27,102 bases of DNA from positions 1 to 27,102 of the IMG/VR virus record IMGVR_UViG_3300030098_002150; one strand, written 5' to 3'. Source of the DNA: a virus. This document shows, in pieces, positions 3,275-25,648 of this stretch. Numbering within the stretch: position 1 is the first letter of the stretch; the number at the start of each line of letters is the position of its first letter. Position numbers and translations under genes: made by a program. Below the pieces are notes generated by a model. The model searched no databases and was not told where the DNA came from. It saw only the letters and a program-made list of their open reading frames with translations.

Positions 3275-5763
3275 TGCGTTTTTATACTAATGTTCAATTG
3301 ATAGGGAATCAGTTTCTGGTTCGTGGGGTTGAGAATGGAAAAAGATATGAGCATAGAGATGAATTTTTTCCTACTCTTTTTGTCAAGTCTAAAAAGAGTA
3401 CTAAATATAAAACGTTGAATGGGCAAGCAGTTGAAGAAATTAAACCAGGCACCGTTAGAGAATGTCGTGACTTCTATAAGAAGTATGAAGATGTGGAGGG
3501 ATTTGAGATATATGGGAATGACAGGTATATTTACCAATACATATCAGAGAAATACCCAGAGGATGAAATCAAGTTTGACATCAGCAAGGTTAAGCTTGTT
3601 ACTCTGGATATTGAGGTTGCGTCTGAGCAAGGGTTCCCTGACGTTGAATCTTGCGTGGAAGAGATCTTGGCAATCTCAATACAGGATTACACGACTAAGC
3701 AGATCGTTACTTGGGGTGTCAAACCCTTTGAGAATAATAGGAAAGATGTAACATATTTCCATTGCCCTACAGAGTATGATCTATTAAATCATTTTATTAA
3801 TTATTGGATGCAAGATGTTCCAGATGTTATTACTGGATGGAACATACAGTTATATGATATTCCATATATCTGCAAACGTCTTAGGAGGGTACTTGGTGAG
3901 AAGTTGATGAAGCGTATGTCTCCGTGGGGACTATGTAGTGAAGGTGAAGTTCATATTATGGGACGTACTCATACTACCTTTGATGTTGGTGGTGTTTGTC
4001 AGTTAGATTATCTTGACCTTTATAAGAAGTTTACTTACAAGGCACAAGAATCATATCGGTTGGATTACATTGCTAGTGTAGAACTTGGTCAGAAGAAGTT
4101 GGACCATAGTGAGTTTGATACCTTTAAGGATTTCTACACAAAGGGTTGGCAAAAGTTCATTGAGTATAATATAATTGACGTTGAACTTGTTGATCGTCTT
4201 GAAGGTAAGATGAAGCTTATTGAGCTTGCTCTTACTATGGCATATGAAGCCAAGGTTAATTACAATGATGTGTTCTATCAGGTGCGGATGTGGGATAATA
4301 TCATTTATAACTATTTAAAGAAGAGGAATATTGTTATTCCTCCTAAGAATAAATCAGCAAAGAACGAAAAGTATGCGGGGGCGTATGTCAAAGAACCGAT
4401 TCCAGGAAAGTATGATTGGGTGGTTAGTTTTGACCTCAATAGCTTGTATCCTCATCTTATTATGCAGTACAATATCTCGCCAGAGACCATCAGGGAGGCT
4501 AGACATCCCCGTGCGAGCGTTGAGAGGATCTTAAAAAAGGAGTGTGAGTTTGATGGAGATTATGCAGTTTGTGCGAATGGAGCTCAATACAGGAAAGATG
4601 TGCGAGGCTTCCTTCCTGAACTTATGGACAAGATGTACGGGGACCGTGTTGTTTTCAAGAAGAAGATGCTACAAGCAAAGCAGGAGTATGAAAAAACACC
4701 AACGAAAACCCTTGAAAAGGAGATTGCCAGATGTAATAATATCCAGATGGCCAAAAAGATATCTCTTAACAGTGCTTATGGTGCTATTGGGAATCAGTAC
4801 TTTCGATATTATAAACTGGCTAACGCTGAAGCCATTACCCTAAGTGGTCAGGTCTCTATTCGTTGGATAGAGAACAAGATGAATCAGAAGATGAATAAGA
4901 TTTTAAAAACGGAGGATGTTGATTATGTTATTGCTTCAGATACTGATTCCATCTACTTGCATCTGGGTCCTCTGGTTGACGCTGTATACAAGGGGAGAGA
5001 GAAAACTAATAAGGGCATTGTGTCGTTCCTTAATAAGATCTGTGAGATGGAATTTGAGCCGTATATTGAAAGTTCTTACCAAGAACTGGCCGACTACGTA
5101 AGTGCCTATGACCAGAAGATGCAGATGAAGCGAGAGAACATCGCAGAGAGGGGTATATGGACTGCTAAGAAGCGATACATCCTTAATGTATGGGATAGTG
5201 AGGGTGTTAGGTATGATGAACCTAAACTCAAGATGATGGGTATAGAGGCAGTTAAATCCTCTACACCAGCACCTTGTAGAGCAATGATTAAGGATGCTCT
5301 TAAACTTATGATGAATGGAACTGAAGAGGAGGTTCAGTCTTTTATTGAAAAGTCCCGTAAGAAATTTAGATCACTTCCACCAGAGGAAATTTCATTTCCA
5401 CGGTCTGCAACTAATGTGCAAAAGTATAAGGGACATTCTACAATATATGCTAAAGGAACTCCTATACATATACGTGGTGCCTTATTGTATAACCATTATG
5501 TTAAACAGCATAAGTTGGACAATAAGTATTCCCTCATTCAGAATGGTGAGAAGATTAAGTTCTGTTATTTGAAAAAACCTAATATTATTCATGAGAATAT
5601 TATTTCGTTTATTCAGGATTTTCCTACTGAACTTGGTCTTGACAAGTATGTCGATTATGACTTACAATTTAATAAATCCTTCGTAGAACCACTTAGAATC
5701 ATACTTGATGCAATTGGTTGGAATGTAGAAAAAACTGTAACCTTAGAGGCGTTTTTTACCTAA
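3274..5763 (+). CDS. 43: Family B DNA polymerase gp43
   Basis: 829-aa replicative DNA polymerase with 3'-5' proofreading, the T4 gp43 homologue (T4: 898 aa). Exonuclease motif I is LDIEV (D112, E114), motif II is in VITGWNIQLYDIPY, motif III is YNIIDVELVDRL. Polymerase motif A is DLNSLYPHL starting at D387, motif B is KKISLNSAYGAIGNQYF, and motif C is DTDS (D556, D558). All catalytic acids are present, so both activities should be intact. The start overlaps the previous stop. Codon use turns richer in G/C-ending codons in parts of the gene (roughly 3560-3720 and 4380-5240) than in neighbouring genes. Confidence 0.97.
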   Translation: MRFYTNVQLIGNQFLVRGVENGKRYEHRDEFFPTLFVKSKKSTKYKTLNGQAVEEIKPGTVRECRDFYKKYEDVEGFEIYGNDRYIYQYISEKYPEDEIKFDISKVKLVTLDIEVASEQGFPDVESCVEEILAISIQDYTTKQIVTWGVKPFENNRKDVTYFHCPTEYDLLNHFINYWMQDVPDVITGWNIQLYDIPYICKRLRRVLGEKLMKRMSPWGLCSEGEVHIMGRTHTTFDVGGVCQLDYLDLYKKFTYKAQESYRLDYIASVELGQKKLDHSEFDTFKDFYTKGWQKFIEYNIIDVELVDRLEGKMKLIELALTMAYEAKVNYNDVFYQVRMWDNIIYNYLKKRNIVIPPKNKSAKNEKYAGAYVKEPIPGKYDWVVSFDLNSLYPHLIMQYNISPETIREARHPRASVERILKKECEFDGDYAVCANGAQYRKDVRGFLPELMDKMYGDRVVFKKKMLQAKQEYEKTPTKTLEKEIARCNNIQMAKKISLNSAYGAIGNQYFRYYKLANAEAITLSGQVSIRWIENKMNQKMNKILKTEDVDYVIASDTDSIYLHLGPLVDAVYKGREKTNKGIVSFLNKICEMEFEPYIESSYQELADYVSAYDQKMQMKRENIAERGIWTAKKRYILNVWDSEGVRYDEPKLKMMGIEAVKSSTPAPCRAMIKDALKLMMNGTEEEVQSFIEKSRKKFRSLPPEEISFPRSATNVQKYKGHSTIYAKGTPIHIRGALLYNHYVKQHKLDNKYSLIQNGEKIKFCYLKKPNIIHENIISFIQDFPTELGLDKYVDYDLQFNKSFVEPLRIILDAIGWNVEKTVTLEAFFT

Positions 5764-24089: not shown

Positions 24090-24533
24090 ATGGTTGAAGT
24101 TGGAATTTATGAAAACCCCTGGTTATATGAGGGTAAACATTTCACTTCTGACGATATTGATGATTTCTTCGGTTTCGTCTACCGTATTACAAATAACCAG
24201 AATGGGAGAGAATACATCGGTAGAAAATATTTCTGGAAGTTTAGAACACCTAAAGGAAAGAAACGCAAAGTAAAATCTGAATCTGATTGGAAAAAGTATT
24301 ATGGGTCTTGTCCAGAACTTAAAGAAGAAATTCAACAATTGGGTAGACAGAACTTTAGCAGAGCTATCCTCAGCTTACATAAAACAGCTGGCAAGACAAA
24401 CTTCGAAGAGACGAGACAACTGTTCGTCAATGGAGTCCTTACCGAGTCACTTGACGACGGCACACCCAAGTACTATAATAGCAACATCCTCTCAAGATAT
24501 TTTAGAAAAGATTACTATGAAGGACTCATATGA
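24090..24533 (+). CDS. GIY-YIG-like endonuclease domain protein
   Basis: 147-aa protein. FGFVYRITNNQNGREYIGRKYFW (about 27-49) matches the GIY-YIG core: the first motif as FVY and the second as YIG with the following Arg (R44). The later segment ESDWKKYYGSC...LGRQNFSRAIL and NFEETRQLF supply the catalytic-type helix and Glu (about E107). The family includes T4 Seg homing endonucleases and repair nucleases. It has no extra DNA-binding domain, so its target is unknown. The gene follows nrdAB, a frequent location for phage mobile nucleases, but the nrd genes look intact with no intron. A GC-rich codon patch lies at about 24360-24480. Confidence 0.75.
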   Translation: MVEVGIYENPWLYEGKHFTSDDIDDFFGFVYRITNNQNGREYIGRKYFWKFRTPKGKKRKVKSESDWKKYYGSCPELKEEIQQLGRQNFSRAILSLHKTAGKTNFEETRQLFVNGVLTESLDDGTPKYYNSNILSRYFRKDYYEGLI

Positions 24534-24729
24534 TGTAGGACCAGCAAGTGCATTTGAAACAGAAGACATTGTTGGATCGATTAGGCAATGGTCTATTGAT
24601 CGAATTGATACAGGTAACTTGGATTGGTCAGAGCAGCAAGCATTAGCAGCAGAGTTTAAGGAATGGATAGAACCAGAAGAAGGTCTTGAAATCATGTCAT
24701 TAGAACCATTAGAAGAAGAAGGGGGTTGA
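24517..24729 (+). CDS. Small acidic protein
   Basis: 70 aa from ATG 24517, overlapping the previous gene by 17 nt. It is acidic throughout, with a helix QWSIDRIDTGNLDWSEQQALAAEFKEWIEPEEG (about 24-56) and a tail of Glu residues. No membrane segment. Its stop codon TGA lies inside the loop of the following terminator, so it ends the nrd transcription unit. Not recognised. Confidence 0.65.
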   Translation: MKDSYDVGPASAFETEDIVGSIRQWSIDRIDTGNLDWSEQQALAAEFKEWIEPEEGLEIMSLEPLEEEGG

Positions 24730-24743
24730 CACCCTCTTTTTTT
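24721..24743 (+). terminator. Rho-independent terminator T3
   Basis: Stem GGGGGT/ACCCTC (one G-T pair; 24721-24726 with 24731-24736), loop TGAC, then seven T. It overlaps the last codons of the upstream gene and the -35 box of the next promoter. Confidence 0.8.
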
Positions 24744-24753
24744 ATGCTATAGT
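24726..24753 (+). promoter_or_regulatory. Strong sigma70-type promoter embedded in terminator T3
   Basis: Perfect TTGACA at 24726-24731, 16-nt spacer, TATAGT at 24748-24753 with extended TGC before it. Expected start near 24760. It drives the talC leader RNA and downstream genes with host polymerase. The -35 box is the terminator loop plus its closing pair. Confidence 0.8.
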
Positions 24754-24759
24754 ATATTT

Positions 24760-24985
24760 GTTGGATCGACGGATTCAACGGGGAGTGACTGAATAATCTT
24801 TCTGGCATATAGCTGGATAAGGTGATGAGACACAGGTGGTGCTGCACCGAAAGGTGAATCGACTTACCAGTCGGGTCTCAGGCAAGGATGTAAAATTTAC
24901 TACTGTAGTAATGCCCGTCCTTTGTTGGTAATACAGAATCCCAACCTCCCACCCCACATATATAAAAGAACTTAATATAACAACA
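24760..24985 (+). ncRNA. Structured leader RNA upstream of talC
   Basis: About 226 nt without a gene, behind a strong promoter. A 6-bp helix TGAGAC/GTCTCA (24826-24831 with 24875-24880) closes a three-way junction with hairpins CACC-GAAA-GGTG (24845-24856, GNRA loop) and CGACT-TACC-AGTCG (24860-24873). GGTG at 24835-24838 could pair with the same CACC, giving an alternative fold. Near the end GTTGG (24924-24928) can pair with CCAAC (24941-24945), and CTCCC at 24946-24950 can pair with GGGAG at 24781-24785. No clear ribosome-binding site precedes talC. It is likely a cis-regulatory RNA; Rfam families such as manA or wcaG from cyanophages are candidates to test. Confidence 0.55.
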
Positions 24986-25648
24986 ATGAGAATCTTTCTT
25001 GACACTGCGGATACTGAAATTATTCATAAGCATTTCGGTACAGGGTTAATTGATGGTATAACAACAAATCCTACTCTCATAATGAGAAGTGGAAGGAATC
25101 CAGAAGATGTGTATCAAGAACTTAAAGATATTGGTGTAAGAGATATTAGTATGGAAGTAGTTGGTGATGCTACTCAAATGATTGTAGAAGGTCGTAGGCT
25201 TGCTAAAAAGTTTGGTGAGTGTGCAACTATTAAAGTTCCTTGTAGTCCTGATGGACTTGCAGCATGTCATCAACTTAGAAGGGAACTTATTAATGTAAAT
25301 GTAACTCTTATCTTTGATGTTGCACAAGCAATACTTGCTGCTAAAGCAGGTGCAAGATATGTTTCACCATTTGTTGGTAGATTGGATGATAACTCTATAG
25401 AAGGATTGGATCTTATTAAAGATATTTCGGATGTTTATGATAAGCAACGTGTTTATGGTACAGAGATTCTTTCTGCTTCTATTCGTTATGTAAATAGTGT
25501 ATCGCAATCATTTGCTAATGGTGCTGACATTGTTACAATGCCACCAGCAGTATTTGAGAAGATGTATAATCACGTTCTTACGGATAAAGGTTTAGAACAA
25601 TTTGATAAAGATTGGGCAGAGGTTGAGAAAATTGGATTGACTGCATAA
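24986..25648 (+). CDS. talC: Transaldolase-like enzyme TalC
   Basis: 220-aa short transaldolase/fructose-6-phosphate-aldolase family enzyme. Schiff-base lysine K83 is in the strand ATIKVP; D6 (FLDTAD), the GITTNPTL motif at 24-31 and the SPFVGRLDD segment (136-144) complete the active site. Cyanophage TalC is known to act as a host-like transaldolase that pushes carbon into the pentose phosphate pathway to supply NADPH and ribose for nucleotides. Its single-gene promoter and long structured leader suggest separate regulation. The end overlaps the next gene by one base. Confidence 0.95.
   Translation: MRIFLDTADTEIIHKHFGTGLIDGITTNPTLIMRSGRNPEDVYQELKDIGVRDISMEVVGDATQMIVEGRRLAKKFGECATIKVPCSPDGLAACHQLRRELINVNVTLIFDVAQAILAAKAGARYVSPFVGRLDDNSIEGLDLIKDISDVYDKQRVYGTEILSASIRYVNSVSQSFANGADIVTMPPAVFEKMYNHVLTDKGLEQFDKDWAEVEKIGLTA

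Follow-up and report, generated by a model that had tools for sequence, protein, structure and literature searches.

The window, that is, the whole stretch of DNA analysed, is a 27,102-base IMG/VR virus record carrying T4-like cyanophage genes, among them those for ribonucleotide reductase, a SegE-type GIY-YIG protein, the transaldolase TalC and phosphoribosylglycinamide formyltransferase (PHROG and Pfam assignments). The protein encoded at 24,090 to 24,533 is named 'NAD synthetase' in PHROG 447 versus SegE_GIY-YIG, a homing endonuclease type, in Pfam (E 6e-56), and the former name, which several cyanophage records also use, is probably a wrong annotation. An initial sequence-only reading had described a gene-free segment behind a strong promoter upstream of talC, and both parts of that description were confirmed, the segment lying between an open reading frame that ends at 24,729 and the talC start at 24,986. 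The features of the locus are the following:

24,720 to 24,743, plus strand: terminator-like hairpin, AGGGGGU-UGAC-ACCCUCU followed by a U run (read from the sequence)
24,726 to 24,753, plus strand: sigma-70 type promoter, TTGACA-16-TATAGT, 11 of 12 matches (sequence match)
24,762 to 24,955, plus strand: manA RNA (RF01745), full length (cmscan, 176.8 bits, E 7e-48)
24,986 to 25,648, plus strand: talC, transaldolase / fructose-6-phosphate aldolase family (PHROG 440, E 2e-90; Pfam PF00923)

The terminator-like hairpin could end the upstream transcript, and its loop region contains the -35 box of the promoter; this box also overlaps the upstream reading frame at its stop codon. A similar hairpin covers the -35 box in 38 of 108 relatives among the matches listed. 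Judging from the promoter position, transcription is expected to start at about 24,760, two bases ahead of the 5' end of the manA RNA. In the window, the approximately 30 nt between the RNA and talC contain no terminator or tRNA, which counts against a free RNA. The next gene, talC, is apparently carried on the same transcript.

The structured RNA that had been proposed to head the talC transcript was identified decisively, the cmscan match spanning model positions 1-192 at a score far above the RF01745 gathering score of 55.2 bits. The other Rfam families gave chance-level matches only at this locus, and none of the wcaG, PhotoRC-II and glnA families, which had also been named as candidates, matched the segment. 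A PhotoRC-II RNA was observed to share a contig with manA elsewhere (L098:13522-13621). The elements of the RNA in the window are arranged as follows:

24,762 to 24,777, plus strand: 5' hairpin P1, with two-sided changes in six of six pairs
24,781 to 24,785, plus strand: 5' strand GGGAG of the long-range pseudoknot (cmscan; covariation)
24,801 to 24,817, plus strand: hairpin in a conserved internal loop, 24,801-24,806 with 24,812-24,817 (cmscan; covariation)
24,826 to 24,880, plus strand: junction with a 6-bp closing helix, 24,826-24,831 with 24,875-24,880 (cmscan; covariation)
24,833 to 24,844, 24,845 to 24,856 and 24,859 to 24,874, plus strand: the three junction hairpins, the second with a GAAA loop (24,845-24,848 with 24,853-24,856)
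24,837 to 24,840, plus strand: UGGU in the loop of junction hairpin 1, predicted loop-loop contact (complementary in 94 of 94)
24,866 to 24,869, plus strand: ACCA in the loop of junction hairpin 3, partner of UGGU (complementary in 94 of 94)
24,884 to 24,922, plus strand: long hairpin, 24,884-24,890 with 24,916-24,922 (strongest covariation)
24,924 to 24,945, plus strand: 3' hairpin GUUGG/CCAAC, its 3' strand adjoining the pseudoknot strand (cmscan; covariation)
24,946 to 24,950, plus strand: 3' strand CUCCC of the pseudoknot (compensatory pairs among relatives)

The 6-bp closing helix and the GNRA (GAAA) hairpin of the junction had been recognised correctly in the sequence-only reading; the junction itself is four-way and not three-way, because three hairpins are enclosed.

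Since the folding energy of the segment alone is unremarkable (z = -1.56), support for the structure comes from the family match and from covariation. Two-sided changes were found in 31 of the 48 pairs among 33 diverse relatives, and the stems of homologous leaders covaried likewise in 94 relatives chosen so that no two exceeded 93% likeness, where 34 of the 48 pairs had two-sided changes, 93.1% of the cells were paired (78.9% after shuffling) and the covariation score was 0.405 versus 0.144 in shuffled alignments. In a tree-based covariation scan the pairs of the structure ranked first, and five of the six significant pairs fell within it. In the same scan, positions 24,797 and 24,817 covaried outside the consensus structure, apparently as A/U versus U/A, and may perhaps form a tertiary contact.

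The manA pseudoknot carried a question mark in 2010 (Weinberg et al., 2010, PMC2864571). Both strands were fully paired in 45 of the 46 divergent elements that have them, in the versions GGGAG/CUCCC, GGGUG/CACCC, GGGUG/CGCCC, GGAUG/CAUCC and GGCUG/CGGCC, with GGGUA opposite UGCCC or UACCC in a second set; the predicted pairing, covarying across at least six sequence versions, is now firmly supported. The predicted contact between junction loops 1 and 3 is likewise supported, since UGGU and ACCA are complementary in all 94 relatives and their variants UGAU and AUCA change together. Elements with UGAU carried AUCA in nine of nine variants, and 18 elements with UGGU carried ACCA in the opposite loop, a few of them differing at one base (ACCU, ACCG, GCCA), two elements with insertions (L421 and L437) being excluded from this reading; the joint UGAU/AUCA change possibly reflects one single evolutionary event. 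Covariation thus shows an RNA predicted to fold into a compact unit, closed by the long-range pseudoknot and the loop-loop contact.

To place the element in a wider context, an exact pattern of its conserved core was searched, which returned at least 120 viral stretches; divergent members are under-represented in this unselected set, since it was defined by the exact core pattern among the matches listed. The relatives belong to Kyanoviridae, which, like the cyanophage genes of the window, is in keeping with the T4-like cyanophages and marine metagenomes in which manA RNA occurs. Among the matches listed, a promoter with at least 10 of 12 matches precedes 110 of the 116 elements that have upstream sequence, versus 4.5% of random places, and its end lies 20-32 nt ahead of the pseudoknot strand in nearly all of them. 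Three matches came from bacterial assemblies, labelled 'Prochlorococcus' (L322) or assigned to Flavobacteriales and Gammaproteobacteria assemblies (L321, L323), and the contigs are probably phage DNA; the family appears phage-borne because all three adjoin phage-type genes, and a host-borne manA was rejected on this ground. In P-HM1, P-HM2 and P-SSM4 (L208, L210, L212), short hypothetical proteins are annotated over the RNA (e.g., PHM1_121, PHM2_011, PSSM4_169.1), and these are probably not genes.

The genes following the RNA have no common function. With clusters derived from a simple open reading frame rule, the first downstream proteins of 102 loci among the matches listed fell into 33 clusters, comprising hypothetical proteins, Hsp20, 2OG-Fe(II) oxygenase, purL-like, high-light-inducible and structural proteins, and others; a recurrent link to following genes of related function, by which a riboswitch or cis-regulatory leader would be recognised, was not found. 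The distribution is nevertheless non-random, with gp32-type single-strand DNA-binding protein at 23 and transaldolase at 12 of these 102 loci, which speaks against a free RNA. So does the orientation of the next gene, which shares the strand of the RNA in almost every isolate studied and often starts within 15-60 nt. In isolate phages the site itself varies: the RNA lies before talC, gp32 or purL, and after gp23, pstS or a ferredoxin gene. Among 26 isolate phage records, 18 contain one RF01745 copy, eight none and none two (one copy in 13 of 13, then in 2 of 10 with the other eight lacking it, then in 3 of 3, by batch), so that the RNA is not essential to all phages; exactly one copy was also present in 24 of 27 long viral contigs. 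A second manA RNA was seen in L076 alone (119-318 and 3639-3839), where the two lie about 3.5 kb apart ahead of different genes, a case that counts against the free-RNA reading. Conversely, a manA match accompanied 27 of 80 talC loci, and talC therefore does not need manA.

A 3' end marked by a terminator or processing site, as a free-standing RNA gene would have, is seen in many relatives but not in the window. Among the 113 distinct elements in the matches listed, a U run directly past the RNA occurs in 52 (4.7% in controls), a classical terminator in 22 (5.3% in controls) and a conserved hairpin, roughly 41 nt long, in 22; these groups overlap, at least one of the three being present in 67 elements, with differing sequences, and none in the remaining 46, the window included. 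The hairpin takes the form (A)GACCUAAGAUGCAACUC-loop-GAGU.GGGCAGAUGGUC(U), with an internal loop UAAGA/GAU and compensatory pairs, and has no Rfam match; examples are L016:3490-3530, L049:1971-2012 and L073:2080-2121, among others, and it is absent from the window. No instance was found other than behind manA, at 8-19 nt past its end: the manA core precedes it in 110 of the 111 cases with enough upstream sequence, and the other one (L231) follows a divergent manA. A dedicated model detected it in 25 of 100 loci, scores between 17 and 58 bits being empty and the E-values, coming from our own model, rough, and in none of 13 isolate genomes. The hairpin is a new element, located behind about a fifth of environmental manA copies. 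Motifs resembling the late promoter ATAAATA occur within 70 nt past the RNA in 25 of the 113 elements (e.g., L089, L053, L095) versus 2.8% at random, which points to separate late promoters for some of the genes that follow.

In several phages manA is one member of a tRNA array. The order in Synechococcus phage RN05-S is promoter, tRNA-Arg, manA, tRNA-Thr and tRNA-Ala with near-zero spacers; S-B43 and S-H68 have a similar arrangement, and ACG-2014f carries tRNA-Arg, manA and tRNA-Asn. Further cases were collected through two pattern scans built to find them and confirmed with the covariance model and ARAGORN; one pattern returned 102 stretches, with a manA match in 71 of 99 newly fetched loci (weak in L383 and L424). 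In these targeted scans, 75 elements have a tRNA on the 5' side, with a gap of 0-5 nt in nearly all, and 76 have one on the 3' side, in most cases 3-11 nt past the pseudoknot strand, while 37 elements, 24 of them distinct in sequence, are flanked on both sides by 14 different tRNA pairs. In the unselected set a tRNA abuts manA in only 9 of 121 elements among the matches listed, which counts against the free-RNA reading. The element either starts at a promoter of its own or belongs to a tRNA array, as befits a free-standing RNA gene, and for tRNA-flanked copies a free RNA produced by tRNA processing fits better than the Rfam 'Cis-reg' label. The tRNA contexts may have been noticed earlier.

Taken together, the manA unit is probably a free-standing phage RNA and not a gene-specific switch, one that would be released and act in trans. 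The proposed mechanism builds on the observed family, structure, promoter position, copy number and tRNA adjacency. A dedicated sigma-70 promoter would make the RNA, its start, to judge from the promoter position, coinciding with the RNA 5' end. In relatives, where manA is one gene of a tRNA array or has a terminator behind it, release could proceed through tRNA processing, with RNase P cutting at the following tRNA and the tRNA ahead being processed at its 3' end, or alternatively through termination, and the released RNA may then act in trans on a partner. It also seems fairly likely that manA is not a riboswitch at all and is instead a single-copy RNA gene of T4-like cyanophages, set free from tRNA-manA-tRNA precursors or terminated early transcripts and acting in trans, with a conserved 3' hairpin lacking an Rfam model added in some lineages. 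The accessible portions of published infection transcriptomes (P-HM2, Prochlorococcus) contain no report on the manA region.

A riboswitch, in which manA would bind a metabolite or ion and control the next gene in cis, is unlikely, even though cis-control was proposed when the motif was discovered, its discoverers rating cis-regulation as certain and a riboswitch as probable (Weinberg et al., 2010, PMC2864571). The complex and highly conserved fold is typical of aptamers, the co-directional next gene is often metabolic (talC, purL, ManA-like), and at many loci an expression platform could be provided by the U runs or terminators ahead of the gene. These terminators, however, vary by locus and are missing from a large part of the elements, alternative pairing is not conserved inside the element, and talC often occurs without it. 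There is also no conserved Shine-Dalgarno sequence to mask, a match being present in 23 of 68 manA-led genes and 8 of 26 window genes, with no difference between them. A metabolite switch for talC, as originally envisaged for this carbon-metabolism gene, is hard to reconcile with unrelated next genes, including gp32 and structural genes, with a copy number that never reaches two in any examined isolate genome, and with tRNAs as neighbours, in many relatives on both sides; the proposal is left unsupported.

It is improbable that manA acts in cis on the transcribing polymerase as a nascent-RNA element, through antitermination or attenuation of whichever genes follow. Its location at the extreme 5' end of sigma-70 transcripts, whatever genes these contain, and often just ahead of terminator-like sequences, would suit such a role, but about 40% of the loci among the matches listed have no terminator to pass, and copies inside tRNA arrays, behind the first tRNA, indicate that the 5' position is not needed. 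Still less probable is a passive role, in which the 5' fold would stabilise early messages or precursor tRNAs and have no function of its own; it would account for the placement at transcript starts and in tRNA arrays, but the unpaired segments GUGACUGAAUAA, CUGUAG and GUGGUG, invariant in most relatives, far exceed the conservation that a stabilising hairpin requires. Hardly credible, finally, is the proposal that CACC at 24,845 toggles between two GGUG partners while CCTCCC masks the talC ribosome-binding site: both pairings are possible in the window sequence, but just 6 of 94 relatives have CACC, and for either alternative the second pair forms in only 10 of 94, which ruled out the switch, and the alternative helices had no support in the tree-based covariation scan, while CCTCCC, correctly located near the segment's end (24,945-24,950), is no anti-Shine-Dalgarno and contains the pseudoknot 3' strand, as decided by its compensatory pairing with GGGAG and by the lack of a Shine-Dalgarno match at talC, a lack rightly noted before yet nothing special, being shared by 18 of the 26 window genes.

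Several known systems invite comparison with manA. The put RNA of phage HK022 is structured, starts early transcripts and is indifferent to the genes behind it, acting in antitermination. It differs from manA in size and structure, and manA is also found behind tRNA genes. In phage T4, RNAC and RNAD are encoded with the tRNA genes. Like manA, they are phage-encoded structured small RNAs, but they are classed as late RNAs whereas the manA promoter is of the early type (PMC9697503). The wcaG, PhotoRC-II and glnA RNAs are cyanophage-carried structured families linked to metabolic genes, as manA is, yet constitute separate families (PMC2864571, PMC9964418). RF01745 itself shares with the window element its helices, pseudoknot, T4-like cyanophage source and location 5' of the sugar-metabolism gene talC; it is filed as a cis-regulatory riboswitch candidate in 5' UTRs, whereas the contexts described here point to a free RNA, and the firm pseudoknot, the predicted loop-loop contact and, in some relatives other than the window, the 3' hairpin go beyond its description (PMC2864571; Rfam 14 update, PMC7779021).

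Known since 2010 as a riboswitch candidate, the manA RNA is an unsolved case in phages that are among the ocean's most abundant. If it is indeed a free RNA, ligand screens guided by the neighbouring gene would be the wrong test. Because copies in tRNA arrays are flanked by natural processing sites, Northern blots and RNase P cleavage can test the free-RNA alternative directly, and the conserved 3' hairpin and the predicted loop-loop contact offer concrete targets for mutation.
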